Assembly (NCBI GenBank): GCA_017936685.1
Contig: JAGBFA010000015.1
Span: 207,466 to 271,465 of the forward strand
Length of the DNA: 64,000 bases
Direction of reading: 5' to 3'
Source: Alistipes sp.
GTDB lineage: Bacteria > Bacteroidota > Bacteroidia > Bacteroidales > Rikenellaceae
The translations under genes and the position numbers were made by a program. Below the pieces are notes generated by a model, which searched no databases, was not told where the DNA came from, and saw nothing but the letters and a program-made list of their open reading frames with translations. Every line of letters begins with the position of its first letter. The first letter of the stretch is position 1. Positions 38,455 through 64,000 of the stretch are shown here, one piece after another.

Positions 38455-38529
38455 CGGGATGTAGCGCAGTCCGGTTAGCGCGCCAGCTTCGGGAGTTGGA
38501 GGTCCCGGGTTCGAATCCCGGTATCCCGA
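38455..38529 (+). tRNA. tRNA-Pro (anticodon CGG)
   Basis: Same first 27 bases as the preceding tRNA; the anticodon arm is CCAGC-TTCGGGA-GTTGG (anticodon CGG) and the T-arm CCGGG-TTCGAAT-CCCGG. CCA is not encoded. It follows the first tRNA by 93 bases and is probably co-transcribed. Confidence 0.95.
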
Positions 38530-38534
38530 CAGAG

Positions 38535-47328: not shown

Positions 47329-47366
47329 CGTGATGGGAATAAGTCTCCGAAGCACCACTACCCTAT

Positions 47367-47826
47367 TTTTTTGTCAAAAGGCATTAGTTGCAACTTTTTC
47401 GTTAAGCCGGACGAGCAAAGCGAAGTTTACTTCGACTTTGCCGCGGCGAGAAAAAGTGCATGAAATGAAGCCGCACGTGAAAAGGACGCAGATGGGCTGT
47501 ACTTAGCGTACTGCTCATTTGCGGACTTAAACGAGGCGAAGCAAATGACGCCTTTTCACGAAAAAGAAACGATTTTTTTGTCAAAAGTGGTATTATGCCA
47601 CGCGACGACAGAGTGAGACGATGGGCCGTACTGAGTGTACTGCCCATTGTCGAGCGACGAGAAGCGGCAGCAGATGCGGTATTTTCACAGAAAAGAAACT
47701 ATTTTTTTGTCAAAAGGCATTAGTTGCAAGCCGCACGTGAAAAGGACGCAGATGGGCTGTACTTAGCGTACTGCCCATTTGCGGACTTAAACGAGGCGAA
47801 GTAAATGATGTCTTTTCACAAAAAAA
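47367..47826 (+). repeat. Family B hairpin elements, copies 7, 8 and 9
   Basis: Copies at 47367-47566, 47574-47694 and 47702-47826. Copy 7 carries about 75 extra bases between its left end and the hairpin. Stems are GCAGATGGGC/GCTCATTTGC, GACGATGGGC/GCCCATTGTC and GCAGATGGGC/GCCCATTTGC, all with the same G-T pair. Copy 9 ends 4 bases before the waaA -7 element. Confidence 0.82.
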
Positions 47827-47830
47827 TTAT

Positions 47831-47838
47831 TATCTTTG
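47831..47838 (+). promoter_or_regulatory. waaA promoter -7 element
   Basis: TATCTTTG starts immediately after family B copy 9, 23 bases before the waaA ATG, the same arrangement as at dusB. Confidence 0.6.
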
Positions 47839-47861
47839 CGTCGTTTTAAACAAAGATAGTC

Positions 47862-49094: not shown

Positions 49095-49101
49095 ACGCGC
49101 A

Positions 49102-49472
49102 CAGATTCTTCGCTCACGCTCAGAATGACCAAACCAACGTGTCATGCTGAACGCCAGTGAAGCATCTGGTTGGGAAGGGGTAGGCATTGCCACGCTGTCA
49201 CTCCGAGGGAGGGCATTGCCCGACCGTGGGAGTCTCACCAACCAAACTGTCACTCCGAGGAGCCGCAGGCGACGTGGGAGTCTCGCCGCCGGGAGTGCCC
49301 ATGTCGTCCCAAACAGAGATTCTCACGTCGCGATTTACAATCGCTCCTCAGAATGACCAATGTGTCATGTTGAGCGGAGCGAAATATCTGGTTGGGGTAG
49401 ACAAGGCATATCGTCCTCGCATATCGTCCACAACCGGATTCTTCACTACGCGCTGCTCCGTTCAGAATGACA
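49102..49472. repeat. Family A repeat, block 5
   Basis: Right arm at 49102-49129, a left arm TGTCATGCTGAACGCC... near 49141, two left arms of the TGTCACTCCGAGG type near 49197 and 49248, right arms near 49316-49357 and 49430-49472. It fills most of the gap between waaA and the kinase operon. There is no family B copy here. Confidence 0.7.
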
Positions 49473-49505
49473 CGTCAAAACAAATCGGCAGACCATATAA
49501 TAGAT

Positions 49506-49541
49506 AAGCGGCAACAGACCATCAAAAATCTGTTGCCGCTT
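49506..49541 (-). terminator. Terminator of the kinase-caspase operon
   Basis: A 13-bp perfect stem (49506-49518 with 49529-49541) lies about 30 bases after the last kinase gene. Confidence 0.7.
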
Positions 49542-49572: not shown

Positions 49573-51924
49573 CTAATTTGAGACAGGGCGGACACTTTGC
49601 CCAAAGGAACGAAAACTATAATCAACAACATCGTAACCGACGTCACAGAAGAAGAGATAGCACGCACGCTGCGAATCGCCCCCGGAGGGCGTGGAACTCC
49701 AATAGTCACCGTACACCCCGACATCAAGCAGTGACGACCCATCTTTTATACCCGCAGCCGGCAAAAATATAGAGTTGCCATTAGTTTTGCTTGTTACCTT
49801 GTAGCCGTTATGACCGCCTTGACTTGTCCATGTCCATGTACATTTATTGACAAGTTCCTGCATCTCCGCTTTCGTCGGCATACGCCACGATCCGCCCCAA
49901 TTAACACGGGCTGCATCATAACTATAATCACCTGAAATATCGCGCATATTCCGTTCCCACGTTTTACAATTTTCATCAAAAAACTCCGACTTAGTATTTG
50001 TTTCGCCCCACGCATAGTAATTGCCGTAAGCAGAGGGTGTCGACGCGCCCACATTGCATGTTGCCCACTTGACACTCAGGCCTAAGTCGACCCACTCATG
50101 CCCCGCGATAGTGCCGGTCAGGGCTTTTTGGTTAGTTGTAGTCACCTGCTGCTGAGTCGGAGACGAGGTTTGTGCAGGCTTCGATGCCGGCTGCTTCGGA
50201 GTAGAATCGACAGCACTTTGCACAGGAGCCTTTGACGATGCTGTCGTATTATCTTTCGCATTGGGATCAAAGACAGGACGGATATATTGGTCACAATCAC
50301 GCATATCATAGTCCACAAGGTAACTATTGAAAAAATAAAAACCATAAGCACAACTCGTATCGCTCTCATGCGGAGTGGAGCTCCAATAGTATCCATCTCC
50401 ATCGTCCAAATGATCGCGATGCGAGGTGAGGAATATGGAGTTGCCATTTATCTTGCTCGTAAACTTTAACCCTCTATAATAACCATCTACAATCACAAAC
50501 TCCCAAGTAGAGTTATCACGAAGTTCCTCCATCTCAGCTTTCGTTGGCATACGCCACTGACCGCCCCAGTTGGCACGGGCAGCATCGTATTTGGGATTGC
50601 CCGCAATGTCACCAATGCTTTTATTATTGGTCTTGCTATTCTCCTCAGTGTACTCCGACTTAGTGGTCGTTTCACCCCATGCGAAGTAGTCGCCGAAGTC
50701 CGAAGGTGACGTAGCACCCACGTTGTATGTAGCCCACATAACACTTAGTCCCATATCGACATAATCGTGTCCGTCGATACTGCCCGTGGCAGGAGACACC
50801 GATATCAGTTCGTGTGTATCGTTCGAGCTTATTACGCGGAGCATGACAAAACCTATGACGGCAAAGATTGCAATGCAGGCCGCAGCTGTCAGCCACTTGT
50901 GGCGGCCGAAGAACGAACGTTTCGGTTCGGACGGCAAGACCGATTTATAGGTCTTGGCAGCAGGCTGCGGTTTGGGTTGCGGAGTCGATTGATGCGGAGC
51001 TTGCTGCGAGGCCGTGACAACGGTCGCATCGTCGTCGAAGACTGTTTCGTCAGATGCGGCCGCAGTTGACGCATCAAGAAGCGCAAGGAAGGCATCGATG
51101 GTCTGAGGACGGTCGTTCTTCCTAATTTGCATGGCGGCCGAGATCGCACGGCGGGTAGGCTCCGAGATTGTCTCCGGCAGCGGATCGAGCTCCTCGCCGC
51201 TGGCAAGCACATTTGCGCTAAGGGGCGTGATCCCCGTAAGCAGTTTATATAGCGTAGCACCAAGCGCGTAGATATCAGTGGCGGGCAGGAACTTGACAAC
51301 GTCGTTGCCCATCTGCTCCAACGGGGCGTAGCCCGGGGTCTTGCCCATAAGCGTAGAGGTGTTCTCGCCAGCCTCCTCGTCGTATTGTTTCGAGGCTCCG
51401 AAGTCGATCAAGATGGCATTGTCGTCCGAATCAATCATGATATTGCCGGGCTTGATGTCAAGGTGCAGGCGGTTGTGGTCGTGCACGTAGCGCAGTGCTT
51501 CGGCAACCTGACGGATATAGCGCACGGCACGCGCCTCAGGCATGGCCCCGTCACGCTTGACAATCTCGCCGAGCGAGAGGCCGTCGACGTAGTCCATAAC
51601 GTAGTAGGCAGTGCCGTTCTCCTCGAAGACGTCCGACACGCGGACGATACCCGGGTGTTTGAGTTTGTAGAGGGCACGTGCCTCGTCGGCGAACTTACGG
51701 CGCAGTTTGTCGACCAAAGCACGTTTGCCGACGGTGCCGACGGTGATATGTGCCGTGGTCTCGTCGCGATTGCAGAAGTCCTTGACAAAGAACTCCTTGA
51801 TAGCCACGCGCTCCTCCATATTGACATGGATAGCTTCGTAGGTGCAGCCGAAGCCGCCGCTGCTGATAAAACGTACTATTCTATATTTCCCTCCTTGAAG
51901 GAGGGTATCTACCGGTAGGGTCAT
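49573..51924 (-). CDS. Membrane Ser/Thr kinase with two FISUMP domains (kinase 1)
   Basis: The 783-residue protein has a Hanks-type kinase domain (about 13-285): glycine loop SSGGFGCTY, Lys43 in VAIKEFF, catalytic HLDIKPGN (154-161), DFG at 174-176 and APLEQ at 200-204. HLD in place of HRD marks it as a non-RD kinase. A polar linker, a basic patch (KRSFFGRHK) and one membrane helix (about 343-363) follow, then two FISUMP (Fib_succ_major) domains (about 381-550 and 605-783), each with GHDYVDLGLSV-type start, WRMPTKAEM and a variable WSS...RPV end. The basic patch predicts kinase inside and FISUMP outside. It is last in a six-gene operon; kinase 2 ends 48 bases upstream. Confidence 0.88.
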   Translation of the reverse strand: MTLPVDTLLQGGKYRIVRFISSGGFGCTYEAIHVNMEERVAIKEFFVKDFCNRDETTAHITVGTVGKRALVDKLRRKFADEARALYKLKHPGIVRVSDVFEENGTAYYVMDYVDGLSLGEIVKRDGAMPEARAVRYIRQVAEALRYVHDHNRLHLDIKPGNIMIDSDDNAILIDFGASKQYDEEAGENTSTLMGKTPGYAPLEQMGNDVVKFLPATDIYALGATLYKLLTGITPLSANVLASGEELDPLPETISEPTRRAISAAMQIRKNDRPQTIDAFLALLDASTAAASDETVFDDDATVVTASQQAPHQSTPQPKPQPAAKTYKSVLPSEPKRSFFGRHKWLTAAACIAIFAVIGFVMLRVISSNDTHELISVSPATGSIDGHDYVDMGLSVMWATYNVGATSPSDFGDYFAWGETTTKSEYTEENSKTNNKSIGDIAGNPKYDAARANWGGQWRMPTKAEMEELRDNSTWEFVIVDGYYRGLKFTSKINGNSIFLTSHRDHLDDGDGYYWSSTPHESDTSCAYGFYFFNSYLVDYDMRDCDQYIRPVFDPNAKDNTTASSKAPVQSAVDSTPKQPASKPAQTSSPTQQQVTTTNQKALTGTIAGHEWVDLGLSVKWATCNVGASTPSAYGNYYAWGETNTKSEFFDENCKTWERNMRDISGDYSYDAARVNWGGSWRMPTKAEMQELVNKCTWTWTSQGGHNGYKVTSKTNGNSIFLPAAGIKDGSSLLDVGVYGDYWSSTPSGGDSQRACYLFFCDVGYDVVDYSFRSFGQSVRPVSN

Positions 51925-51972
51925 AGTAATTTATAATTATATTTTAATTTTCCGATCGGATATGCTCCGCTG

Positions 51973-53448
51973 CTATTCCGAAACAGGCCGGACACTTTGC
52001 CCATAGTAGCGATAGCTCCAACTCACATAGTGAATACCGCTATGGAAACTAAGGTAACATGAACTCTGAATAGATTTCTCGTAAGGCATAGAACACCAAT
52101 AATAGCCACACTTTCCAGAAACATTGAGCGAGGATCCGTATTTATAGCCCGCAGCCGGAATAAAGATAGAGTTACAATTGATTTTACTTGTAACCCGGTA
52201 ACCATTACGACCCTCTTGACTCGTCCATATCCATGTGCATTTGTCTATAAGCTCCTGCATTTCCGCTTTTGTGGGCATACGCCATGACCCGCCCCAGTTG
52301 GCTCGGGCGGCATCGTATTTGGGATTGCCCGCAATATCGCCGATAGTTTGATTATAGGCAGTACTGTTCTCATCATTATATTTCAACTTGACCGCCATCT
52401 CGCCCCATGCGTAGTAATTACCGTAGTCCGACGGTGACGACGCGCCTACATTGCATGTCGCCCACTTGACGCTCAGGCCTAAATCGACATAATCATGGCC
52501 ATTGTACATTCTTTGCGACATAAAACTATCCGCCAACACAGTCACCTCGTCATTTATAACAGTCTTATCCAACTCTACGGCAGATGTAGCTGATGTATCG
52601 AGAAGCGAAAGGAAAGCATCGATGGTCTGCGGACGGTCGTTCTTCCTGATTTGCATGGCAGCCGAGATCGCACGGCGGGTAGGCTCCGAGATTGTCTCCG
52701 GCAGAGGATCAAGCTCCTCGCCGCTGGCAAGCAGATTAGCCTCCGGCGGCGTGACACCCGTAAGCAGCTTGTAGAGCGTAGCTCCGAGGGCGTAAATATC
52801 GGTAGCAGGCATGAACTTCATCACATTATTGCCCATCTGCTCCAACGGGGCGTAGCCCGGGGTTTTGCCCATAAGCGTAGAGGTGTTCTCACCGGCCTCC
52901 TCGTCGTATTGTTTCGAAGCTCCGAAATCGATCAAGACGGCATTGTCGTCCGCATCGACCATGATGTTGCCGGGCTTGATGTCAAGGTGCAGACGGTTAT
53001 GGTTGTGCACATAGCGCAGTGCTTCGGCAACCTGACGGATATAGCGCACGGCACGCACCTCGGGCATAGCCCCGTCGCGCTTGACAATCTCTCCTAATGA
53101 AAGGCCGTCGACATAGTCCATAACGTAGTAGGCCGTGCCATTCTCCTCGAAGACGTCCGACACGCGGACGATGCCCGGGTGTTTGAGTTTGTAGAGGGCA
53201 CGTGCCTCGTCGGCGAACTTACGGCGCAGCTTGTCGACCAAAGCGCGTTTGCCGACAGTGCCCACGGTAATATGTGCCGTGGTCTCGTCGCGATTGCAGA
53301 AGTCCTTGACAAAGAACTCTTTGATAGCCACACGCTCCTCCATATTGACATGGATAGCTTCGTAGGTGCAGCCGAAACCGCCGCTGCTGATAAAGCGGAC
53401 TATTCTGTATTTCCCTCCTTGAAGAAGGGTGTCTACCGGTAGGGTCAT
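51973..53448 (-). CDS. Ser/Thr kinase with one FISUMP domain and no membrane helix (kinase 2)
   Basis: The 491-residue protein has a kinase domain nearly identical to kinase 1 (Lys43, HLDIKPGN, DFGASKQY, APLEQ), but after about residue 285 a short linker leads straight into a single FISUMP domain (about 319-491: NGHDYVDLGLSVKWATCN, WRMPTKAEM, GQSVRPVSE). No hydrophobic helix is present, so both domains should be cytoplasmic unless exported by another route. The FISUMP tail (SIQSSCYLSFHSGIHYVSWS) differs from all other copies. It follows the PP2C gene by 26 bases. Confidence 0.86.
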   Translation of the reverse strand: MTLPVDTLLQGGKYRIVRFISSGGFGCTYEAIHVNMEERVAIKEFFVKDFCNRDETTAHITVGTVGKRALVDKLRRKFADEARALYKLKHPGIVRVSDVFEENGTAYYVMDYVDGLSLGEIVKRDGAMPEVRAVRYIRQVAEALRYVHNHNRLHLDIKPGNIMVDADDNAVLIDFGASKQYDEEAGENTSTLMGKTPGYAPLEQMGNNVMKFMPATDIYALGATLYKLLTGVTPPEANLLASGEELDPLPETISEPTRRAISAAMQIRKNDRPQTIDAFLSLLDTSATSAVELDKTVINDEVTVLADSFMSQRMYNGHDYVDLGLSVKWATCNVGASSPSDYGNYYAWGEMAVKLKYNDENSTAYNQTIGDIAGNPKYDAARANWGGSWRMPTKAEMQELIDKCTWIWTSQEGRNGYRVTSKINCNSIFIPAAGYKYGSSLNVSGKCGYYWCSMPYEKSIQSSCYLSFHSGIHYVSWSYRYYGQSVRPVSE

Positions 53449-53474
53449 AATGTTTGGATTAGCAGGCGTTACAG

Positions 53475-54950
53475 TTATTTTTTCGTAATATTTTCATGCA
53501 ATCTCTGGCTGTCGCTGTCGACAACATCGCTGCCGTCATCGTCGGAGCTTCGCTGTGATTGCACCACCTCCTCGGCCGCGGCCCTTTGCGAGTCGTTAAG
53601 CACTACGCCCGATTGCGCCGGCTGCTGCACGGCAGGGGTTTGAGCGGTCTGCGACTGCGGTTCCGGCTGCGACTGCGGCTCGGAGTCAGAATCGTGCTCC
53701 TGAGTCGTTGCTGACGGCGTCTCATTGTCCTGCGCAGGCTGTGTCTCTTGTGCAGGGGCAGGTTGTCCGGCGGCAGGCGGTGTTTGCCCTGCGGCAGGAC
53801 TGGCCGGAGCGGAGCCATGACGTACAGAGCCGGGATCCGTCTTAGGCGACGGGGGCGTGGCAGGAGTCTGCCCGGCCTCGGTCTTCGCGGTCGCAGCTGA
53901 TTCGCCGGGACGTATGTAGAGATAATATCCGACCGACACTATCGCAGCAACCGCAACGGCTACCAGCATCGGCACCAACAGACGACGAGAGCTCTTGCGC
54001 CGCAAATCGTCCGAACCGCCGGCAGCAGAGCCTGACTGGCGTTGTCCGATGTTGCGCGCACGGTCATCGGCACGAACACTGCGGACGCTGCCCGTACCCT
54101 CCTCTACCTGTGCCATAAGAGGCTCCACGGCAGCAGCCCGTCGTCCGGCCGAAGCAGGGACATCGACCGGCAGCGGATCGACGACATCGGTGATATACAC
54201 CAGTATGGCCGAGTGATTATCGTGATTCTCGCGAGTGACCTTGATAAGCATATCGACCTTGTTGGCCGCATCGCCGCCCTTGGCCGAAAAGATATACTTC
54301 AAGTTGTCGTCCTCCATCTGCTCCAATATACCGTCGGAGCAGAGCATGAAGTAATCGCCCGGACGAATATCATGCGTATGATATATGTCGGCCTTGGGGC
54401 GACGCTCCATACCGGGCTGCATGGCGCGTGTGATGATGTTTTTCTGCTTGGATACCTTGGCCTCCTCGCGCGTAAGCTCCCCCACTCTGACCAGATCGTT
54501 GACCAGCGAGTGATCCTCGGTCTGGAACAGGATAGCGGTATCGTCGACACCACGCCCCGGACGGATATGATAGACGCGGCTGTCGCCGATATGCGCTATC
54601 GTCGCGCCGCGGTCGTGCAGTTTGAGGAATGTCAGCGTCGTACCCATCTTCTTGGCCGCGCCGTTGTCGTGCTCGTCCAGAGCATCGAACGCATCGGCAA
54701 GCCCTGCGCGGAAGTCATCGTCGGTGAAGCCGCCCTCGACCGAAGTGCAGCGCGACAATATCGATGCACCCATAGCCTCGCACACCGTCCGGCTCGCCAC
54801 CTCGCCGGCGGAGTGTCCGCCCATGCCGTCGCAAAGGATAAAGAGACGGTCCTCGGCCGCAGCCTTGCCATAAGCGGGAAACATCGAGTCCTCCTGCTTC
54901 TCGCGAGGTCCCTGCTCCCAAATGCCATATACATTCAACTTATATTTCAT
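53475..54950 (-). CDS. PP2C-type Ser/Thr phosphatase with membrane anchor
   Basis: PP2C phosphatases reverse Hanks-kinase phosphorylation using two Mn or Mg ions. Residues about 1-257 contain QEDS (20-22 region), LCDGMGGHSAGE (40-50), AHIGDSRVY (119-127), LCSDGILEQ and the last metal site ENHDNHSAILV. A polar linker with a basic stretch (RRKSSRRLL) precedes one membrane helix (about 325-347). The C-terminal 140 residues are low-complexity Pro, Gln, Ala, Glu and Ser, predicted to lie outside the membrane. Placed between the FHA gene and kinases 2 and 1, it is the obvious antagonist of these kinases. Confidence 0.92.
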   Translation of the reverse strand: MKYKLNVYGIWEQGPREKQEDSMFPAYGKAAAEDRLFILCDGMGGHSAGEVASRTVCEAMGASILSRCTSVEGGFTDDDFRAGLADAFDALDEHDNGAAKKMGTTLTFLKLHDRGATIAHIGDSRVYHIRPGRGVDDTAILFQTEDHSLVNDLVRVGELTREEAKVSKQKNIITRAMQPGMERRPKADIYHTHDIRPGDYFMLCSDGILEQMEDDNLKYIFSAKGGDAANKVDMLIKVTRENHDNHSAILVYITDVVDPLPVDVPASAGRRAAAVEPLMAQVEEGTGSVRSVRADDRARNIGQRQSGSAAGGSDDLRRKSSRRLLVPMLVAVAVAAIVSVGYYLYIRPGESAATAKTEAGQTPATPPSPKTDPGSVRHGSAPASPAAGQTPPAAGQPAPAQETQPAQDNETPSATTQEHDSDSEPQSQPEPQSQTAQTPAVQQPAQSGVVLNDSQRAAAEEVVQSQRSSDDDGSDVVDSDSQRLHENITKK

Positions 54951-54970
54951 AGGTCATGATTTTTATTACA

Positions 54971-55579
54971 TCACATTGTATATTCACTCTCGTCGTATTT
55001 TCTCTCCCCGTCGTCGGGGATCTCGAACCGCAGCACCGCATCGGGCAGACGCAGAGTGTCGCCGTCGTGCAGCACCACACAATCGCCGTATTCCATGCGT
55101 TCGCCGTTGATGCGGGTGTCGTTGACGCGCGGCTTGTAGAGCGACGCATAGTGCACCATGCCCTTGCCCGGCACCTTTTTAACCTCGATCACCAGATGCT
55201 CGCGGCTCATGCGATTGCTCTCGGGCGTGGGTATGCGGAAATCGGCCGACGATGCCGACGACGCACGCCCTATGACATTCCTGCCGGTTTTCAGGCGAAA
55301 CGCAGGGACACTCGCCGACATCACACGCAACACGCCCGGTACAAGATTGGGACGGTCGCCCAAATCGGTCTCTTCGTCTGAATGATGACGAGTCTTTTCC
55401 TTGTCGGGATATTTCGTATGTTCGTGTGCCACGTCGACCACCTGCCGATAAGCCGCAAAAGCCGACGACTCCTTGCAAACGGGACAGGTGATGTTTTTAT
55501 TCTCTATACCCGGCTGCCGCTTAACCGCGAGAATCGCGCCGCAGCACGGACACTTTATCTTTATTGTTGTCTGTTCCAT
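54971..55579 (-). CDS. Zinc-ribbon/FHA domain protein
   Basis: FHA domains bind phosphothreonine. The start MEQTTIKIKCPCCG (ATG at 55579) gives a 202-residue protein with an N-terminal four-cysteine zinc ribbon (Cys10, 13, 32, 35) of the type with zinc-finger/thioredoxin-like cysteines, a polar linker rich in Lys, His and Asp, and an FHA domain from about 100: TGRNVIGRASS, SNRMSREHLVIEV, NDTRINGERMEYGD and LHDGDTLRLPDAVLRFEI. Key Gly-Arg, Ser-Arg-x-His and Asn-x-Thr-x-x-Asn residues are kept. It lies 20 bases before PP2C and 11 after the caspase, so it is the likely reader of the operon's kinases. Confidence 0.92.
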   Translation of the reverse strand: MEQTTIKIKCPCCGAILAVKRQPGIENKNITCPVCKESSAFAAYRQVVDVAHEHTKYPDKEKTRHHSDEETDLGDRPNLVPGVLRVMSASVPAFRLKTGRNVIGRASSASSADFRIPTPESNRMSREHLVIEVKKVPGKGMVHYASLYKPRVNDTRINGERMEYGDCVVLHDGDTLRLPDAVLRFEIPDDGERKYDESEYTM

Positions 55580-55590
55580 ATCGACTGTAT

Positions 55591-56331
55591 CTATTTTTTC
55601 CACTTCATCACCGGCATATTGTCGGAGAACTTGCCCCACATGACGGGGTGTTGTGCGCCGCCGGAGAGTTCGACCACATTGCGATGCACATAATCGAACA
55701 ACTCGCGCGCAGTGATTATGCGATCCTTGTTTTTGTCGGCTCCGCCGCGCAAGCCCTTTTGCAGGTAGGTCGTAAAGAAGCCGTTGGCCATGCCGGGACT
55801 CTCGATCGAACATTCGTTGCTGCGCGACGAGAGGAACAGCATGACGTTGGCCTTTCGCGCCGCCGACTGCTCCGACTGCGAGTTCATCGACGAGACATCG
55901 GTGCGCATCTTGCCCGCATAGCAGGCATCGGCGAAGATCATTTTGTTCTTGCAGCGGCTGCGCGCCATGGCCTTGCGTATATCCGTGTAGCTCAAATCGC
56001 CGTCATAGGCACAAAAGCCGCCCGGGTAGCCGTGACCGCTGTAAAAGAATACCACGATGTCGTCGGCCCCGGCCGCAGAGAACACGCGGTTCATGGCCGA
56101 CTTGATATGCGCCACTGTGGCATTGCTGTCGAGCAGCATGCAATATTGCAGGCCGGAGTTCTTGGAGTAGACCCACGTTATCGTCCGCGCATCTTTGGCG
56201 GGCAATGCCAGATCGCTGTCCGTGCCGGGATAGTCGGTGATGCCCACCGACACCAAATATACCTTAGCCGCGGCCGACAGCGATACCAACAGCATCGCTG
56301 CCGCCGCGAGAGCTGCTCTAAGCCAGGTCAT
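55591..56331 (-). CDS. Exported caspase-like (C14) peptidase
   Basis: The 246-residue product has a signal peptide or anchor (about 1-22, LAAAAMLLVSLSAAA) and a caspase fold: KVYLVSVGITDYPGTDSDLALPAKDAR, the catalytic histidine in VVFFYSGHGYPGG (His100) and the catalytic cysteine in KNKMIFADACYAGK (Cys137). The small-subunit region continues with VMLFLSSRSNECSIESPGMANGFFTTYLQKGL. The cleavage preference is not known; the S1 pocket cannot be judged from sequence alone. The ATG at 56331 overlaps the end of the upstream acidic-protein gene by 14 bases, suggesting coupling. Location is predicted to be periplasmic. Confidence 0.9.
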   Translation of the reverse strand: MTWLRAALAAAAMLLVSLSAAAKVYLVSVGITDYPGTDSDLALPAKDARTITWVYSKNSGLQYCMLLDSNATVAHIKSAMNRVFSAAGADDIVVFFYSGHGYPGGFCAYDGDLSYTDIRKAMARSRCKNKMIFADACYAGKMRTDVSSMNSQSEQSAARKANVMLFLSSRSNECSIESPGMANGFFTTYLQKGLRGGADKNKDRIITARELFDYVHRNVVELSGGAQHPVMWGKFSDNMPVMKWKK

Positions 56332-57334
56332 AGCCGTCGTTGATATAATCCGTCTCCGAGTCGTTCGAGGCATACATGTCGCCGCCGCCCGCTGCGGCAT
56401 TGGCGAACTCCTCGACCGAAATGCCCTGATCGGCTATGTCGAACACCTCGTTATCCGAAATCTCGCCGTTACCGTCGGCATCGACCATCATGTAGTCGAA
56501 ATGACCGCTGTCGGTGACATCGACCAGCACCACGTCCTGGCCGTCGACAGTCATGCCGCCGATGTTGACTCCCAAATCATCGTCATAAGTCACGCCTAAG
56601 ATCTCCACCTCGGGATCGGAATCGACCACAGCCACCTCGACATCGTCCGTGCCGGCGGTATCACCGCCCGACAGATCGGCAGTCTCCCCGACGGCAGAGT
56701 CGAGCTCGTCGACGCTGACCGCCTCGACATCATCGTCCGCCCCGGCGTTCTGCGCATAATCGTCTCCTTCGCCCGTGTCGGTCGACGCAACCTCCGGCTC
56801 CGCGGCCGACGCACCCGATGAGGTTGTCGTGTGATTGCTCCAACTGAAATGATCGTTATACTCGGCGCGCTCCTCGGCCGACATTGCGTTCCACTCGTCA
56901 GCCGTATATGTGCCGTAGACTCCGCCGTGCCACTCGAAAGCTCCGCCCGGGCCTACCTCGGCACGCGCTGCGGCAAAGGCCTCGGAGAACGACATGTCGT
57001 CGTTGACGCTCGTGGCCACCGACACCTCGTCGTCGGCCCACGCGGGCTGTGCCGAGTCGTTCGCGTCCTCGAATACCGAATCCTGCTCCGAAGGCACCTT
57101 CTCGTCGGCTATGGCCTTGTTGGTGGCAAACGATGCCACCGTGCCCAGCAGCATGCCCGTTCCCGCGCCGACCGAAGCCGCCTTCCATGCCGAGCCCTTT
57201 TTGGGCGCAGGTGCCGCAGCCTCATTCTCGGCCGCACGCTCCTCGGTTGCACCGGCCGCAGCCGCGCTCTCATTCACTCGCGTATCGTCGTAAACGGTGT
57301 TTTCATTGTCGTAAATAGTCTCTTCGTTTTTCAT
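56318..57334 (-). CDS. Acidic protein with glycine-rich hydrophobic segment and calcium-type loop (copy 1)
   Basis: I do not recognise a named family. The 338-residue product has a polar start, a glycine/alanine-rich hydrophobic segment at about 49-76 (ASVGAGTGMLLGTVASFATN), a long acidic and disordered stretch, then a compact end (about 245-320): TVDGQDVVLVDVTDSGHFDYM, the EF-hand-like loop DADGNGEISDNE, DIADQGISVEEF and the tail DYINDGYDLA. No classic signal peptide is present. A paralogue at 61442-62185 has the same order of parts. It is first in the operon that continues with the caspase, behind a promoter shared in sequence with that paralogue. Confidence 0.75.
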   Translation of the reverse strand: MKNEETIYDNENTVYDDTRVNESAAAAGATEERAAENEAAAPAPKKGSAWKAASVGAGTGMLLGTVASFATNKAIADEKVPSEQDSVFEDANDSAQPAWADDEVSVATSVNDDMSFSEAFAAARAEVGPGGAFEWHGGVYGTYTADEWNAMSAEERAEYNDHFSWSNHTTTSSGASAAEPEVASTDTGEGDDYAQNAGADDDVEAVSVDELDSAVGETADLSGGDTAGTDDVEVAVVDSDPEVEILGVTYDDDLGVNIGGMTVDGQDVVLVDVTDSGHFDYMMVDADGNGEISDNEVFDIADQGISVEEFANAAAGGGDMYASNDSETDYINDGYDLA

Positions 57335-57375
57335 AATCTTATAAATTTTAATTGTTTATCAATCTTCTTTCTACA

Positions 57376-57406
57376 CAAAAATATAATCGCGCGCCGCCCC
57401 TTGCAA
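57376..57406 (-). promoter_or_regulatory. Promoter of the caspase-kinase operon
   Basis: Minus strand TTG (57406-57404), 20 bases, TATTTTTG (57383-57376), 42 bases before the ATG at 57334. The same arrangement is found at 62220-62250. Confidence 0.75.
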
Positions 57407-57454
57407 GCATTTCCGGCCATAGTGTACCAAATGGCGGGATTATTACACAAAATC
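57405..57454 (-). promoter_or_regulatory. Shared upstream element, copy 1
   Basis: About 50 bases immediately upstream of the -33 region, nearly the same as 62248-62298 (GCATTTCCG, CATAGTGTAC and GGGATTA-TACAC-AAATCG on the plus strand). It contains facing half-sites TAGTGTA and TACACAA separated by about 17 bases, as for a dimeric activator or repressor. The regulator is unknown. Confidence 0.65.
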
Positions 57455-57490
57455 GTGTAAACGACCTATGCCCAACTGCCGAATGCGCTG

Positions 57491-59944
57491 CTATTCTGAG
57501 ACAGGCCGGACACTTTGCCCGTCGTAGCGGTAGTACCAGTCCGTGCCGCAATAGCCGCTGTCGAAGTCGGGGCCGTACGCGCGCTGCGTACTGCTCTCGT
57601 AGGGCGAGGAACTCCAATAGTACCCGCGCTCTCCGGCGTAGTAGAGCGACAACCTGCCGCGCCAACCGGCAGCAGGGAGGAAGATAGAGTTGCCATTGGT
57701 TTTACTGGTCACCTTGTAGCCGTTATGACCGCCCTGACTCGTCCATGTCCAGGTGCACTTATTGATCAATTCTTTCATCTCTGCTTTTGTCGGCATGCGC
57801 CACGATCCGCCCCAGTTGGCACGAGCGGCATCGTAAGCGGGATTACCAGCAATGTCACCGATGCTTTTCTCCCATGTTTTGCAATTAGCAGACGTGTACT
57901 CCGACTTAGTAGTCGTCTCACCCCATGCGTAGTAATTGCCGTAGGCTGACGGCGACGAGGCTCCAACATTGCATGTAGCCCACTTGACGCTCAACCCCAA
58001 GTCGACATAGTCATGACCCGCGATTGTACCAGTCGTAGGCTTGGGTTCGGGGGCGGCTGTCGAAGCAGTATTATTCACCGGATCGACTCCAAATACAGGC
58101 CGGACGCTTTGCCCGACGTGGCGGCCGCACCAAGCTATGCCGTAGCCGACACTGTGGAATCGGAAATCGTGCGCGTCCCGCATATCACTCCCGTTGGGCG
58201 TAGAACTCCAATATTCGGCTTCAATTCCGGCGGAATAGAGCGACGACCTGTTACGAAAACCGGCAGCCGGAAGGAAGATAGAATTGCCATTGGTCTTGCT
58301 TGTCACCTTGTAGCCATTATGACCGCCCTGTGTAGTCCATGTCCAGGTGCATTTATTGACAAGCTCCTGCATCTCCGCTTCTGTTGGCATACGCCATGAT
58401 CCGCCCCAGTTGGCACGGGCAGCATCGTAAGATGGATTACCCGCAATGTCACCGATGTCCTTACCGTCGGTTTTGCTATCCACATAGGTGGATTTCGTTG
58501 TAGTCTCACCCCACGCATAGTAATTACCATAGGCAGACGGCGACGAGGCTCCAACATTGCATGTCGCCCACTTGACGCTCAACCCCAAGTCGACATAGTC
58601 GTGCCCGTAATGCGTACCTGTCGGTTTAAAGTCGGCAGCTTGCTGTGCGGCGGCCTCCTCTTCGCGCTGCTTTTGCGCAGTTTCCTCGCGTTTGCGCTTC
58701 TCCTCAGCCCCACACCGCTGCTGAGCGGCAAGCTCCGTTTCATGCAGCTGCTGTTCCGGCGGCATACTATCCGGCATATAAGCAACCGCCAATGTATCGT
58801 TCGAAACCTTATCGGCAAACTCTGTCGCAACAGACGGCCGTTTTCCGCTGCCGCCGCCCATAGTGCGAAACATTATAAAACCGGCGACAACAAATACAGC
58901 AACGCATACGGCTATGATCAACCCTCTATGGCGACTCCGAAACGACTTGCGCTGCGTAGGCTTCGTCCCAGCATTCTGCGGCTTGTTCGGCCAGCCAGCG
59001 GATTGAGCAGATATGGCTGTCGCAATCCGATCATGATCGAAAGCCGTCTTTTCCGGATCGACAGCCGGTACAACGGCGGCCTCTTGCGGCGCAGCATCAA
59101 GCAGCGCAAGAAAAGCATCAATGGTCTGAGGACGGCGACTCTTGATATCCATCGCAGCGGCTATGGCGTTACGTGTCGCAGCCGAGACTGTCTCCGGAAG
59201 CGGTGCGAGTTGCTCACCGTTGGCCAGCAGATTGGCACTTGGCGGCGTGATCCCCGTAAGCAGTTTATAGAGCGTAGCACCGAGAGCATAAATATCCGTG
59301 GCAGGCAGGAACTTGACAACGTCGTTGCCCATCTGCTCCAACGGCGCATAACCCGGGGTCTTGCCCATAAGAGTAGAGGTGTTCTCGCCAGCCTCTTCGT
59401 CGTACTGCTTCGAGGCCCCGAAGTCGATCAAGATGGCATTGTCGTCCGAATCAATCATGATATTGCCGGGCTTGATGTCAAGGTGCAGGCGGTTGTGGTC
59501 GTGCACATAGCGCAGTGCTTCGGCCACCTGACGGATATAGCGCACGGCGCGCGCCTCGGGCATGGCTCCGCCGCGATTGACCATCTCGCCGAGCGAAAGG
59601 CCGTCGACGTAGTCCATAACGTAGTAGGCCGTGCCGTTCTCCTCGAATACGTCCGACACGCGGACTATGCCCGGGTGTTTGAGTTTGCACAAGGCTTTGG
59701 CCTCGTCGGCAAACTTGCAGCGCAACTTGTCGACTAAGGCGCGTTTGCTGACGGTGCCCACGGAGACATGCGACGTGGTCTGGTCGCGATTGCAAAAGTC
59801 CTTGACGAAGAACTCCTTGATGGCCACACGTTTTTCAAGCATCACATGCTCGGCTTCGTAGGTGCAGCCGAAACCGCCGCTACTGATAAATCGGACTATT
59901 CTGTATTTCCCTCCTTGAAGGAGAGTATCTACCGGTAGGGTCAT
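57491..59944 (-). CDS. Membrane Ser/Thr kinase with coiled-coil and two FISUMP domains (kinase 3)
   Basis: The 817-residue protein has the same kinase core (Lys43 in VAIKEFF, HLDIKPGN, LIDFGASKQY, APLEQ), a linker, one membrane helix (about 342-363, GLIIAVCVAVFVVAGFIMF), a charged predicted coiled-coil (about 395-435, EEKRKREETAQKQREEEAAA) and two FISUMP domains (about 442-615 and 640-817) ending GQSVRPVFG and GQSVRPVSE. Its kinase domain is the most diverged of the four (for example EHVMLEKRV and MVNRGGAMPE). It is the last gene of the second transcription unit, 33 bases after the 59978 gene. Confidence 0.87.
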   Translation of the reverse strand: MTLPVDTLLQGGKYRIVRFISSGGFGCTYEAEHVMLEKRVAIKEFFVKDFCNRDQTTSHVSVGTVSKRALVDKLRCKFADEAKALCKLKHPGIVRVSDVFEENGTAYYVMDYVDGLSLGEMVNRGGAMPEARAVRYIRQVAEALRYVHDHNRLHLDIKPGNIMIDSDDNAILIDFGASKQYDEEAGENTSTLMGKTPGYAPLEQMGNDVVKFLPATDIYALGATLYKLLTGITPPSANLLANGEQLAPLPETVSAATRNAIAAAMDIKSRRPQTIDAFLALLDAAPQEAAVVPAVDPEKTAFDHDRIATAISAQSAGWPNKPQNAGTKPTQRKSFRSRHRGLIIAVCVAVFVVAGFIMFRTMGGGSGKRPSVATEFADKVSNDTLAVAYMPDSMPPEQQLHETELAAQQRCGAEEKRKREETAQKQREEEAAAQQAADFKPTGTHYGHDYVDLGLSVKWATCNVGASSPSAYGNYYAWGETTTKSTYVDSKTDGKDIGDIAGNPSYDAARANWGGSWRMPTEAEMQELVNKCTWTWTTQGGHNGYKVTSKTNGNSIFLPAAGFRNRSSLYSAGIEAEYWSSTPNGSDMRDAHDFRFHSVGYGIAWCGRHVGQSVRPVFGVDPVNNTASTAAPEPKPTTGTIAGHDYVDLGLSVKWATCNVGASSPSAYGNYYAWGETTTKSEYTSANCKTWEKSIGDIAGNPAYDAARANWGGSWRMPTKAEMKELINKCTWTWTSQGGHNGYKVTSKTNGNSIFLPAAGWRGRLSLYYAGERGYYWSSSPYESSTQRAYGPDFDSGYCGTDWYYRYDGQSVRPVSE

Positions 59945-59977
59945 AACTTGTGAGGGTTAGCAGGTACGAATAATAAT

Positions 59978-60352
59978 TTACAACTGCCGGCCGATCTGTC
60001 CTACCCTATCAACGATGGCCGGACGCGAATCGTCGGCCGACAGCTCGCGCAGCTCCAGCTCCACATCGACCAACTGCGAGCGCAGAGCCAGGCACAGCGA
60101 GTCCTGCCTGTCGTCGGCAGCCTCCTGCACCTGCACCGACACGCCGTCGATATGGCGGTTGCGCTTGGCGTCCTCGGTCTCGATACGCTTTTGCAGCGAC
60201 TCGCGGCGCAGATTCAGTTCTTTGAGCTTCACGGCATCGACAGTAGCCTGTCCGAGCACCTGCGTATTGGCAACGCCCTCGGGATTCTGCGCCAAGGCAG
60301 GGATAAATGCCGCCATAAGGCCTGCGGCAACGGCCACGTTACGTATTTTCAT
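59978..60352 (-). CDS. Small exported helical protein
   Basis: The 124-residue product has a signal peptide (about 1-22, ending ALAQ) and a mature part that is almost all charged helix: DAVKLKELNLRRESLQKRIETE, then a second helix LALRSQLVDVELELRELSADD. It looks like a periplasmic coiled-coil. No known family is recognised. It sits between the leucine-rich-repeat gene (13 bases) and kinase 3 (33 bases). Confidence 0.72.
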   Translation of the reverse strand: MKIRNVAVAAGLMAAFIPALAQNPEGVANTQVLGQATVDAVKLKELNLRRESLQKRIETEDAKRNRHIDGVSVQVQEAADDRQDSLCLALRSQLVDVELELRELSADDSRPAIVDRVGQIGRQL

Positions 60353-60365
60353 GATCGCAATCGTT

Positions 60366-61424
60366 TTATTCGTATACTTTAAAACTCTTCACTCCGACGA
60401 TGTTTTTCACATCGGGCATCTGGCTGCGCTCGACATGGAAAGGAAGCGTGCCGCCCGGTTCGGTATAGTCGCCCGTCTGCTGTGCCAAGGCTGCTTTAAA
60501 GGCCTTGACGGCAGCTTTATTCACGACAATCTTCACATCGGCGGCAGCCACCTGCAACAGCAGCACCTGCCGGCCGTCGCACGATGCCGTCATTACAGGC
60601 ACTGAGCCGCGGAACACGACGGTTTGCAGGCCGTTCATGCGGCAGAACTCGCGAAACGGCAACGCTTCGAGCGTCTGCGGCAGGTCGACGAGCGTAAGCT
60701 GCCGGCAGTCGATCAATGCTCCCGCGGTAATGCGGCGCGTGCCCTCGGCAACACGTATCGCGCCGCTGCGGCCTCGCGGACAGCCGTACAGCACCTCGCC
60801 GCTCTTGTTGTAGAGCAGACCGTCGGCGGTCGAAAAACGATCGTTGTTGACATCGACGTGTATCGACTCCAAATGCTTCAACGACTTCATATTGCGTATC
60901 TGCCCGATCTTGGCCGGCACGGTAACGACTCTCAGGCTGTCGCTCCAACGGAATATTTTGAGGTCGACCTCGCGCCAGTCGCTGCCCAGCGACACGTCGC
61001 GTATCTTGTCGCACTTGAAGAACACTCCCTGGCCGAACTTCACGACATTGCCCGGAAAGATGATCTTCGAAAGCGACGAGCACCCCTCGAAGGCAAAGTC
61101 GCCTATCGACTTTATGCCGGCCGGCATTGTGATGCCCGTCAGACGCTCGGCACCGCTGAAAGCCTTTGCCCCGATGCCCGTCACGGTGTACACCTTGTTG
61201 TCGTGGCGCACCTTGGCCGGAATGTTAAGCTCGCCCTCGAAGTCGGTCGGACGATGATCGGCTATGCGGCCGTTGTAGGTCACCTCGGCCGTGCATGCGC
61301 GTGGGTCGGTGATATTGAAATAGACCTTCTGCCCGTCGAGGGTCACCACGAAATCGTGTGCCTGCGCAGAGCCGGCAGCGGCCAGCAGCAGAGCCGATAT
61401 CAAAAGTTTTTTCATAGTCTTCAT
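60366..61424 (-). CDS. Exported BspA-type leucine-rich repeat protein
   Basis: The 352-residue product has a signal peptide (about 1-23, ending AQA) and BspA-like (LRR_5) repeats from about 75: VTGIGAKAFSGAERLTGITMP, IKSIGDFAFEGCSSLSKIIFP, VVKFGQGVFFKCDKIRDVSL. Later parts are less regular, with GLLYNKSGEVLYGCPRG and a domain from about 280 (VPVMTASCDGRQVLLLQVAA). Such repeats bind proteins at the cell surface or in the periplasm. It is second in the operon led by acidic protein copy 2, in the position held by the caspase in the other operon. Confidence 0.85.
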   Translation of the reverse strand: MKTMKKLLISALLLAAAGSAQAHDFVVTLDGQKVYFNITDPRACTAEVTYNGRIADHRPTDFEGELNIPAKVRHDNKVYTVTGIGAKAFSGAERLTGITMPAGIKSIGDFAFEGCSSLSKIIFPGNVVKFGQGVFFKCDKIRDVSLGSDWREVDLKIFRWSDSLRVVTVPAKIGQIRNMKSLKHLESIHVDVNNDRFSTADGLLYNKSGEVLYGCPRGRSGAIRVAEGTRRITAGALIDCRQLTLVDLPQTLEALPFREFCRMNGLQTVVFRGSVPVMTASCDGRQVLLLQVAAADVKIVVNKAAVKAFKAALAQQTGDYTEPGGTLPFHVERSQMPDVKNIVGVKSFKVYE

Positions 61425-61441
61425 ACTGTTTTAATCGCACA

Positions 61442-62185
61442 TTAAGCCATATAATCCGTCACATCGGCATCGTTGACATAGTCGCCGTTTTGGGCAAGCA
61501 GAGGATCGTCGGACGCAAGCGTCGGATCGGGTTCGGCGGCAACAGCAGGGTCGGGCTGGAACGATGCCATCATTATGCCCTCGCCCGTGACATCGAGTGC
61601 CTCGCCGTTGTCGAGCATGCCGTTGTTGTTGAGATCGGCCGCCACCACATCGGCCATGCCGTCCATGTCGACATCGGCAACGATCGTCTCCTGCCCGCCG
61701 ATGCTCAGCACGGCCACATCGGCCATGTTGCCCATCTCGTCGGTCACGACATCATGATCGAGCACCACAACTTCGGGTTCTGTAACAGCAACAGATTCGG
61801 ATTCCGGCTCGAAAATGATTTCCGACTCGAGTTCGGAATCAGGATCGACGACCGGTTCGGGATCGTCCGTAGGTTCTGGTTCGGGTTCCGTGTCAGGAGC
61901 GGGCTGCGGTTCCGGCTCGGGAATAGGATCGGGAGCAGGCTCGGCGGCAGGTTCAGCACCTGCCGCTGGCTGCGTATGTGCCGATGTATGGGCTGCCGGC
62001 TGTTGCGCATTATTACGCTCTTCATCTGCGGCCTGCTCCTCCGCGACGATATCCTCCTCCGTCTCTGCGGCATTCGCTTCGTTGGCCAGCGCACTGCCGG
62101 CGACGATACCTGCGGTCGCACCCAAAGCCGAGCTTACGCCCGTCACGACACCCGATTTCACATTTGCTTCGTTCTCCTTTTTCAT
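61442..62185 (-). CDS. Acidic protein with glycine-rich hydrophobic segment and calcium-type loop (copy 2)
   Basis: A 247-residue paralogue of the protein at 56318-57334. It has a hydrophobic glycine/alanine segment at about 12-35 (VVTGVSSALGATAGIVAGSA), a Pro/Glu/Asp low-complexity middle, then VLSIGGQETIVADVDMDGMAD, the loop DLNNNGMLDNGE, DVTGEGIMMASF and the tail DYVNDADVTDYMA. The order matches copy 1, but the middle is unrelated low-complexity sequence. Function unknown. It opens the transcription unit that ends with kinase 3 and is separated from the upstream kinase 4 stop by 156 bases, exactly as copy 1 is from kinase 3. Confidence 0.75.
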   Translation of the reverse strand: MKKENEANVKSGVVTGVSSALGATAGIVAGSALANEANAAETEEDIVAEEQAADEERNNAQQPAAHTSAHTQPAAGAEPAAEPAPDPIPEPEPQPAPDTEPEPEPTDDPEPVVDPDSELESEIIFEPESESVAVTEPEVVVLDHDVVTDEMGNMADVAVLSIGGQETIVADVDMDGMADVVAADLNNNGMLDNGEALDVTGEGIMMASFQPDPAVAAEPDPTLASDDPLLAQNGDYVNDADVTDYMA

Positions 62186-62219
62186 AGTTATAAGTGTTTT
62201 AATTTGTTATTAACCAATA

Positions 62220-62250
62220 CAAAAATATATTCGATCTCCTCGCTCAGCAA
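62220..62250 (-). promoter_or_regulatory. Promoter of the LRR-kinase 3 operon
   Basis: Minus strand TTG (62250-62248), 20 bases, TATTTTTG (62227-62220), 35 bases before the ATG at 62185. Confidence 0.75.
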
Positions 62251-62298
62251 GCATTTCCGCTCATAGTGTACGAACCCTCGGGATTACTACACGAAATC
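62248..62298 (-). promoter_or_regulatory. Shared upstream element, copy 2
   Basis: Matches 57405-57454 at most positions over about 50 bases, including the facing TAGTGTA and TACAC half-sites, in the same position relative to the promoter. Confidence 0.65.
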
Positions 62299-62341
62299 GC
62301 AAAATCGGCATATAATCACGCCCGCCGAATGCGCTGCACAG

Positions 62342-64000
62342 CTATCTCGAAACAGGGCGGACGCTCTGTCCAATACTGCGATAGCTTTCATGCACGATGT
62401 GGCTGCCGCTATCGAAGTAGATGTAGTATGCGTCCTGCGTATTGTTCTTGTAAGGCGAAGAGCACCAATAGATACCGTAATCCTCGGCATCGCTGAGCGA
62501 CGATCCGGTACGCCAGCCGGCGGCAGGGAGGAAGATAGAGTTACCGTTGGTTCTGCTTGTCACCATATAGCCGTTATGGCCGCCCTGTGTAGTCCATGTC
62601 CACGTACATTTATTGACAAGTTCCTGCATTTCGGCTTGCGACGGCATGCGCCACGACCCGCCCCAGTTGGCACGGGCGGCATCGTAAGAGGCGTTGCCGG
62701 ATATATCGCCGAGATTCTTATCGTAGGCCGCACTGCTTCCCTCGGTATACTCCGCTTTGGGAGCAGTCTCGCCCCACGCGTAATAATTGCCGTAAGCCGA
62801 CGGGGACGACGCTCCGACATTGCATGTCGCCCACTTGACACTCAGGCCTAAATCCACCCAGTCGTGACCGGCGATAGTGCCGGTTGTCGATTTGGCGGCC
62901 TCCTCCTGTAGTCTCCGCTTCGCATACTCTGCGGCCGTAGCTTCTCCAGCCAAACGCGATTCGGCAGCTGTTTCCAACGGTGGAGGCGGAGTTCGTGACA
63001 CTTGATCCGATTCCGATGACGCAGCCACCGGCGACGAAACGACAGTCGGTTCGGGTTGGGGTGTTTCAACGACAGACTCACAGCAAGGAGACTCTTCGCA
63101 GGCCCCGTAACACTCCTCGTCGGCAGCAGATTCACAGCAAGACGACTCTTCTATACTTGCTCCGTTGCGTTGCTCGTCACTACCTGCAACTACTATCTCG
63201 TCATAAGCACGTTTTTTTGCGCCGTCACCGTTCATACTGCGTACCATCACAAAACCTATGACGGCAAAGACAGCAATGCAGGCCGTAGCTGTCAGCCACT
63301 TGTGGCGGCCGAAGAACGACCGTTTCGGTTCGGGCTGTAAGACCGATTTATAGGACTGGGCAGCAGCCTGCGGTGCGGGTTGCGGAGTCGATTTATGCGG
63401 AGCTTGCTGCGAGGCCGTGACAACGGTTGCATCGTCGTCGAAGACTGTTTCATCAGATGCGGCGGCAGACGCGGCTGCACCCGACGGCGCAGCATCGAGC
63501 AGCAAGAGAAAGGCATCGATGGTCTGCGGACGGTCGTTCTTCCTGATCTGCATAGCGGCCGAGATCGCACGGCGGGTAGGCTCCGAGATTGTCTCCGGCA
63601 GCGGATCGAGCTCCTCGCCGCTGGCAAGCACATTTGCGCTAAGGGGCGTGACACCCGTAAGCAGTTTGTAGAGCGTGGCTCCGAGGGCGTAAATATCGGT
63701 AGCAGGCATGAACTTCATCACATTATTGCCCATCTGCTCCAACGGGGCGTAGCCCGGGGTCTTGCCCATAAGAGTAGAGGTGTTCTCGCCGGCCTCCTCG
63801 TCGTATTGTTTCGAGGCTCCGAAGTCGATCAAGATGGCATTGTCGTCCGAATCGACCATGATGTTGCCGGGCTTGATGTCAAGGTGCAGGCGGTTGTGGT
63901 CGTGCACATAGCGCAGTGCTTCGGCAACCTGACGGATATAGCGCACGGCACGCACCTCGGGCATAGCCCCGTCGCGCTTGACAATCTCTCCTAATGAAAG
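62342..64000 (-). CDS. Membrane Ser/Thr kinase with Cys-rich linker and one FISUMP domain (kinase 4), 5' end cut
   Basis: The frame is open to the right edge; 552 residues are present and the N-terminal 116 or so are missing (by comparison with kinase 2). Visible parts are the HLDIKPGN catalytic loop, LIDFGASKQY, APLEQ, a membrane helix (RHKWLTATACIAVFAVIGFVM), then a linker with cysteine pairs (SSCCES, EECYGACEES, PCCES), a Pro/Glu/Ala-rich stretch and one FISUMP domain ending GQSVRPVSR. The DNA of the kinase part alternates between kinase-1-like and kinase-2-like stretches. No gene upstream can be seen. Confidence 0.87.
   Translation of the reverse strand, partial: LSLGEIVKRDGAMPEVRAVRYIRQVAEALRYVHDHNRLHLDIKPGNIMVDSDDNAILIDFGASKQYDEEAGENTSTLMGKTPGYAPLEQMGNNVMKFMPATDIYALGATLYKLLTGVTPLSANVLASGEELDPLPETISEPTRRAISAAMQIRKNDRPQTIDAFLLLLDAAPSGAAASAAASDETVFDDDATVVTASQQAPHKSTPQPAPQAAAQSYKSVLQPEPKRSFFGRHKWLTATACIAVFAVIGFVMVRSMNGDGAKKRAYDEIVVAGSDEQRNGASIEESSCCESAADEECYGACEESPCCESVVETPQPEPTVVSSPVAASSESDQVSRTPPPPLETAAESRLAGEATAAEYAKRRLQEEAAKSTTGTIAGHDWVDLGLSVKWATCNVGASSPSAYGNYYAWGETAPKAEYTEGSSAAYDKNLGDISGNASYDAARANWGGSWRMPSQAEMQELVNKCTWTWTTQGGHNGYMVTSRTNGNSIFLPAAGWRTGSSLSDAEDYGIYWCSSPYKNNTQDAYYIYFDSGSHIVHESYRSIGQSVRPVSR

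Follow-up and report, generated by a model that had tools for sequence, protein, structure and literature searches.

We describe here a gene cluster at one end of a 64,000-nt stretch of Alistipes sp. DNA (GCA_017936685.1, contig JAGBFA010000015.1), called the window below, whose coordinates are used throughout; the cluster lies on the minus strand. It encodes Hanks-type kinases, a PP2C phosphatase, FHA proteins, acidic proteins and a caspase-like peptidase. We propose that it represents a conserved phospho-signalling module of the Bacteroidota, in which sensor kinases, phosphothreonine docking on an acidic protein and an exported caspase as output would form one circuit, and we give this proposal as good a chance of being right as of being wrong. 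Good support for joint action of these genes in one system, as suggested in the first-pass annotation, comes from the gene neighbourhoods, a PP2C-caspase fusion, intact functional residues, a shared threonine motif and a repeated upstream site. Since the gene order is repeated in dozens of genomes, the arrangement is not due to chance. Kinases are named K with their length in amino acids (aa); the prefixes L, C and G denote fetched loci, contigs of the Alistipes sp. assembly and genomes, respectively.

The window ends where contig C10 ends. The end of contig C16 overlaps that of C10 over 12,253 bp with 1 mismatch, on the opposite strand, both sequences reaching their contig ends. We read this as an unmerged assembly overlap, which makes the region turn up twice in searches of the whole genome. 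When C10 and C16 are joined, 16 genes occupy 21,635 bp of a single strand in the following order: a LytTR protein (126 aa), K849, K527, a membrane FHA protein (255 aa), K489, K667, an acidic protein (247 aa), an LRR protein (352 aa), a coiled-coil protein (124 aa), K817, a second acidic protein (338 aa), the caspase (246 aa), an FHA protein (202 aa), PP2C (491 aa), K491 and K783. C16 thus supplies what lies beyond the window, for a total of seven kinases, the LytTR protein and a second FHA protein. The domains were identified with Pfam and NCBIfam, and confirm the four kinases, the PP2C, the FHA protein and the caspase that the first-pass annotation had placed on one strand between 49573 and 64000, the fourth kinase being cut by the window end. 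Its inventory of the circuit holds for the parts in the window but missed the LytTR and membrane FHA proteins beyond it, the lectin nature of the sensors and the link to a retroelement in relatives. The short gaps and overlaps that it reported run from -14 to 48 bases, except for two gaps of 156 bases, each preceding an acidic gene. A caspase start at 56331 (246 aa) is probable and gives a 14-base overlap with the acidic gene. The supposed FHA-caspase overlap disappears, as the FHA start is most likely 55579 (ATG, 202 aa) and not 55813; the orthologue in G088 shares the corresponding start site.

To what extent the genes travel together was assessed from a caspase search of GTDB genome contigs. 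Of 124 relatives, 80 were kept, from Bacteroidales groups and a few placed merely as Bacteroidia. Open reading frames of the loci, most of which are caspase-anchored, were labelled with hidden Markov models built from the window proteins. On the same strand and within 8 kb of the 80 caspases, FHA was found in 75, acidic proteins in 74, PP2C in 71, membrane FHA in 66 and a kinase in 62. The first-pass annotation would have been refuted had these genes rarely been neighbours in related genomes, but they commonly are: caspase, FHA and PP2C are adjacent in 61 of the 80 loci. Many loci are truncated by contig ends; among the 43 with at least 6 kb on both flanks, 34 have FHA, PP2C and kinase, and nine miss at least one of them. 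LytTR, LRR and coiled-coil proteins are the commonest unlabelled neighbour families, LytTR being present anywhere in 65 of the 80 loci, LRR relatives in 25 and coiled-coil relatives in 23. G088, of the same genus, has membrane FHA, acidic protein, caspase, FHA, PP2C and kinase in the identical order, without the expansion of kinases. Some loci (L128, L138, L139) have the genes in another order.

A search anchored instead on the membrane FHA protein matched 13 of 344 Bacteroidales genomes, Alistipes sp. included. Seven of the loci fetched from these (L131-L137) have no caspase in the retrieved stretch. FHA, PP2C and kinase are present in four of these (L132, L134, L135, L137), L131 and L133 have a kinase and run out at a contig end, and only LytTR and membrane FHA are found in L136. 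Since such caspase-free versions exist, the caspase is an output that the module does not always have.

The distribution of the module is patchy. Among 150 relatives, a caspase at E <1e-100 occurs only in Alistipes sp. and G088, and 10 pass 1e-10. At 1e-20 the caspase profile is matched by 54 of the 344 genomes of the order sample, and 11 of these also pass 1e-50; one such locus, L050 of G100, shows no module by eye. Confinement to the Bacteroidales can be rejected, given that L176, L179, L180 and a Runella plasmid carry the module. In the phylum sample, 8 of 395 genomes, Alistipes sp. included, match the caspase at E 1e-45. Of nine caspase loci from that sample, those three numbered loci hold all parts, and the other six have no labelled partners nearby except LytTR-type genes in two. 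In L176, from outside the Bacteroidales, PP2C and caspase are fused in one 521-aa protein; a stretch resembling a signal anchor separates the two domains, suggesting that the phosphatase is cytosolic and the protease lies outside. A plasmid search gave six matching records, of which the Runella record (L185) was the one examined; membrane FHA, acidic protein, FHA, PP2C and caspase are consecutive there, and a kinase lies 12.7 kb from the caspase. A vWA-domain protein adjoining the module and the distant gene, annotated as a Ser/Thr kinase, were noted on the plasmid (L185:1044-1457 and 19441-20922).

The residues expected of working enzymes and readers are preserved. In PP2C, D41, D206 and D244, which we take to be metal-binding, are present in 69 of 69 aligned sequences. 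In the soluble FHA protein, R105 and S125 are found in 76 of 76 sequences and H128 and N153 in 74 of 76; these are presumably the residues of the phosphopeptide site. The membrane FHA protein, with an FHA domain, two transmembrane (TM) segments and a zinc ribbon, scores 22.6 bits with the Pfam FHA model (cut-off 20.7), its G088 orthologue falling below at 17.7 bits; in an alignment of 20 sequences, SR and H residues and the cysteines of the zinc ribbon are conserved. The caspase matches Peptidase_C14 (PF00656, E 2e-22), and the His-Cys dyad of its p20-like domain, H123 and C160, is invariant in 82 of 82 aligned sequences. By eye, the N-terminus resembles a signal peptide in most of 20 aligned caspases, and the protein is probably exported. 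Orthocaspases are described as cleaving after basic residues (PMC6426788).

All seven kinases of the joined cluster are of the Hanks type, and six keep the catalytic Lys, HxD and DFG. In K489 (L016:1704-3173), HLN replaces the catalytic HLD and the sensor domain is intact; it is therefore a probable pseudokinase. In K527 a DUF805 membrane domain is present and FISUMP is absent. No hydrophobic segment separates the kinase domain from FISUMP in K491 and K489, so FISUMP is not necessarily extracellular in these two. FISUMP, the name given to the sensors in the first-pass annotation, is a loose label: the models (PF09603 / TIGR02145) stay under the curated cut-off where they are listed, with 13.4 of 33.9 bits for K489 and 23.7 of 41.65 bits for K817, and are unlisted for the others. 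The related Lcl_C (PF07603) is above cut-off for K783, K817 and K849 and below it for K491, K667 and K489. A structural model of the C-terminal domain of K817 has a fold that matches solved C-type lectin domains, and on that basis the sensor tips are predicted to be C-type-lectin-like. The kinase tips of relatives are not always FISUMP; FGE-sulfatase, Sel1, MORN, PEGA, TPR and other domains are found. As a separate observation, the Alistipes sp. genome has six more FISUMP proteins without a kinase domain (L043:701-2488 on C4, L041, L042, L044, L045, L046); their N-termini are mostly signal-like by eye, and one has three tandem FISUMP domains.

The acidic-protein tails and the kinase linkers share an E-x-T-x-[YF]-D motif. 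FHA domains prefer threonine with aspartate at +3. The N-terminal tails of the acidic proteins (76 sequences, the window's included) are rich in E-[ED]-T-[IVQ]-[YFL]-D. The looser pattern T-x-[YFLIVM]-[DEN], picked after viewing the sequences and so defined on the same data it describes, occurs 79 times in 45 of 70 acidic tails preceding a hydrophobic stretch (shuffles: mean 16.5, maximum 28) and 62 times in 50 of 95 kinase linkers (shuffles: mean 24.1, maximum 37). Serine has no comparable motif context in these tails and linkers. Each kinase of the cluster has at least one such threonine motif, e.g., DETVFDDD. The structural model of acidic protein 2 consists of a low-confidence tail, which is probably disordered, and two confident domains; TIYD and TVYD lie in the tail, an EF-hand-like stretch in the C-terminal beta domain and DYIND at the C-terminus.

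Both 156-bp gaps contain the pattern TTG-N20-TATTTTTG, which we take to be the Bacteroidota-type promoter consensus; it is found in 19 of 68 upstream regions versus 0.4 in shuffles. Both also contain a perfect direct repeat, NTTNRTRYA-N12-NTTNRTRYA. Over 81 loci, this repeat, which was defined on the data it describes, has 38 perfect sites at spacer 12, compared with 0-6 at the other spacer lengths in the range 8 to 16; in 33 loci an acidic gene is preceded by a site with one mismatch or none. AgrA, a LytTR protein, binds direct repeats upstream of its promoters (PMC4227749), which makes the co-encoded LytTR protein a natural candidate binder. By this analogy, the repeats are possible LytTR operators.

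In two related islands, L088 and L138, a diversity-generating retroelement targets a kinase tip, as judged by RVT_1 hits and repeat pairs. In L088, 24 of 25 mismatches over 189 bp are at template A. For the first kinase of L138, 24 of 28 mismatches over 207 bp are at template adenines, and for the other kinase every difference is at template A but one base and a 3-bp indel. As to the accessory Avd protein, L088 gave a hit below the cut-off (bAvd, E 1e-7, 32.9 bits, cut-off 40); the single small protein scanned in L138 gave a weak MutS_I hit alone. L138 also carries a tandem pair of caspase genes (L138:6427-8166). Capture of a retroelement is not the rule for the module, because a reverse transcriptase (RT) with a matching repeat pair occurs only in L088 and L138 among 93 loci (L051-L143). 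The scan for adenine-biased repeats gave one false positive, a palindrome in L142. Of 24 further places with related RTs in the 344 Bacteroidales genomes, 20 were examined, and a repeat pair was present in 13 of them, in no case in a kinase. One of these 13 retroelements (L144:9292-10355), outside any kinase island, has its variable repeat in a caspase protein that ends in a FISUMP-like domain.

For Alistipes sp. itself, an active retroelement is rejected for the present assembly (88.8% completeness), which holds no matching RT or template. One variable end searched against its own genome with BLAST gave 25 DNA hits (E up to 1), all of them island genes, coding FISUMP genes or a 23-bp match on C4. 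The assembly has two RT genes, an adenine-biased repeat pair being found only at the one on C1, with an FGE-type target, and this is also the only RT matched by that of L138 (E 2e-17). The C1 locus (L023:6918-8730) is a separate retroelement with RT, HRDC protein and FGE-type target, in which 14 of 15 repeat mismatches are at coding-strand adenines. Variation in the window's sensor tips was measured over 17 copies against the L138 template. Amino-acid diversity was 0.85 at template-Asn codons versus 0.30 where the codon has no A; at the first two codon positions, nucleotide diversity was 0.55 at template A versus 0.19-0.27, with 0 of 10,000 permutations as large; and the figures for third base C/T were 0.78 versus 0.66. 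Such variation fits past action of a retroelement. It is not proof of one, because plain selection on a binding face would fit as well and conserved codons also vary at their synonymous sites.

Each biochemical step of the proposed circuit is inferred, as are the acidic protein's topology and the direction in which control runs. Hanks kinases with a common catalytic domain and divergent C-terminal tips would sense ligands, mostly across the inner membrane. Their phosphorylation targets would be the threonines of E-x-T-x-[YF]-D motifs, both in the kinase linkers themselves and in the N-terminal tail of the caspase-adjacent acidic protein. Both FHA/zinc-ribbon proteins, the soluble one and the one in the membrane, would bind these phosphothreonines, and PP2C would remove them. 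The opposite end of the acidic protein is probably outside, and docking on this protein may then free or feed the exported orthocaspase. The LytTR protein would boost expression of the acidic/caspase units by binding the direct repeats with their 21-bp period. It is tempting to go further and propose that families of sensor kinases with hypervariable C-type-lectin tips act through a shared phosphothreonine/FHA circuit to switch an exported caspase, the tips being rewritten in some genomes by a built-in retroelement; we hold this fuller version only tentatively. That the circuit ends in extracytoplasmic proteolysis, as the first-pass annotation suggested, is plausible from the signal-like caspase N-termini, and this output would be missing in the caspase-free versions of the module.

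A different function for the same parts is envelope homeostasis, with kinases sensing the state of the envelope and the caspase maturing acidic, LRR or other envelope proteins without cell death. The exported-looking caspase, LRR and small coiled-coil proteins share the cluster, the best NCBIfam hit is to a PASTA-kinase-like core, and many relatives have PEGA, MORN, Sel1 or TPR tips in place of lectin-like ones. Against it, housekeeping hardly explains the variable lectin tips or the capture of a retroelement, and the module is not core in the genus; we rate the envelope reading at rather less than an even chance. Somewhat less probable still, in our judgement, is a role in conflict or defence, with lectin sensors detecting phage or a competitor and the caspase executing growth arrest or death. 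The sensors belong to a kind that retroelements diversify, two islands contain a retroelement, the distribution is patchy, and one copy is plasmid-borne with an adjoining vWA protein. Such roles have been proposed for retroelement-linked caspase/kinase systems of cyanobacteria and purple sulfur bacteria, and there are published precedents (PMC7159879, PMC7517822, PMC10907252). Nonetheless, exported-looking N-termini are odd for a cytosolic executioner, Pfam finds no MoxR, vWA or STAND protein among the 16 genes, PADLOC run on 10 of the 16 proteins matches general kinase/caspase domains plus one weak PP2C-linker hit, and no caspase match was found among 50,697 phage records at E 1e-10. Finally, that the cluster loosely gathers phospho-signalling genes that share no function, the counts reflecting the caspase-anchored choice of loci, could appeal to the rearranged orders, the nine incomplete long-flank loci and L136, but is very improbable given the loci recovered by membrane-FHA anchoring, the caspase-FHA-PP2C adjacency and the PP2C-caspase fusion.

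Several known systems resemble the module in part. Like the type VI phosphorylation pathway (PpkA, PppA, Fha), it joins a Hanks kinase, a PP2C-type phosphatase and an FHA reader; in A. tumefaciens, Fha binds phosphothreonine in the cytoplasmic N-terminal domain of the inner-membrane protein TssL, activating secretion (PMC3953482). Unlike that pathway, its output is apparently an exported caspase and an acidic protein, its lectin-tipped kinases are multiplied and a LytTR gene lies in the cluster. The analogy, then, concerns the way of working and not membership. In retroelement systems of cyanobacteria and Thiohalocapsa, a C-terminal lectin domain with a kinase or caspase is likewise the target (PMC7517822, PMC10907252). 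The enzyme and lectin are fused there, whereas here, in Bacteroidota, a separate caspase stands beside a kinase/PP2C/FHA circuit, and the Alistipes sp. assembly has no matching retroelement. Caspase, kinase, FHA, FGS and PP2C domains also recur in the ternary (vWA-MoxR) conflict systems and GAP1-N2 GTPase systems, the latter including a kinase-PP2C pair (PMC7159879, PMC8195603). In contrast, the 16 genes, all scanned with Pfam at E 0.001, 1 or 0.01, include no vWA, MoxR or STAND/GTPase protein; the Runella version has an adjoining vWA protein. The kinase and phosphatase are closest to the PknB/Stk1 and Stp1 NCBIfam models, like PASTA kinase + Stp pairs, but no PASTA domain was found and the scores, 168 of 450 and 160 of 230 bits, are below the equivalog cut-offs. 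No publication on this gene combination was found in the open-licence PubMed Central literature, which is weak evidence of absence.

Table 1. Features of the cluster in the window, from the window end to the last gene.
Feature	Position	Strand	Remarks
Overlap of C10 and C16	51748-64000 / C16:52562-64814 (L016)		12,253 bp, 1 mismatch
K667, 3' part	62342..64000	-	TM; one FISUMP/Lcl_C, variable part ~62348-62548; 667 aa once completed from C16
Perfect direct repeat NTTNRTRYA-N12-NTTNRTRYA	62267..62296	-	ahead of acidic gene 1; putative LytTR-type operator
Promoter-like TTG-N20-TATTTTTG	62220..62250	-	Bacteroidota-type, by presumed consensus
Acidic protein 1, 247 aa	61442..62185	-	
BspA-type LRR_5 protein, 352 aa	60366..61424	-	N-terminus signal-like by eye
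Small coiled-coil-like protein, 124 aa	59978..60352	-	hydrophobic segment at N-terminus
K817	57491..59944	-	TM 341-359; two FISUMP/Lcl_C, variable parts ~57497-57697 and 58091-58291
Second perfect direct repeat	57423..57452	-	ahead of acidic gene 2
Promoter-like TTG-N20-TATTTTTG	57376..57406	-	ahead of acidic gene 2; by presumed consensus
Acidic protein 2, 338 aa	56318..57334	-	TIYD/TVYD tail, SFSEAF domain, C-terminal beta domain
Orthocaspase Peptidase_C14, 246 aa	55591..56331	-	probably exported
Zinc-ribbon + FHA protein, 202 aa	54971..55579	-	start corrected
PP2C phosphatase	53475..54950	-	one TM 324-342
K491	51973..53448	-	no TM detected; one FISUMP, variable part ~51979-52179
K783	49573..51924	-	TM 347-365; two FISUMP/Lcl_C, variable parts ~49579-49782 and 50269-50448; last gene of the cluster

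Elsewhere in the window, tandem tRNA-Pro genes with anticodons TGG and CGG lie at 38287-38530. Short dispersed intergenic repeats, readable as CHSEE- or RDSHVA-type open reading frames, occur near many genes (window 47069-49507 and L041-L046); one pair of them is 82% identical over 117 bp.

The proposed module turns a list of domains into a testable circuit of gut commensals, for which it names a candidate substrate motif, reader, eraser, regulator site and protease; it also ties retroelement-diversified sensors to kinase signalling. Bench testing is possible in named strains among the matches, namely Bacteroides caecigallinarum, Leyella stercorea DSM 18206, Odoribacter lunatus DSM 112344 and Bacteroides bouchesdurhonensis. 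If the fuller version with variable lectin tips is true, the system would parallel receptor-repertoire immunity or kin recognition in the form of multi-gene signalling, and in genomes such as that of Alistipes sp. tandem duplication of kinases would take the place of the retroelement.

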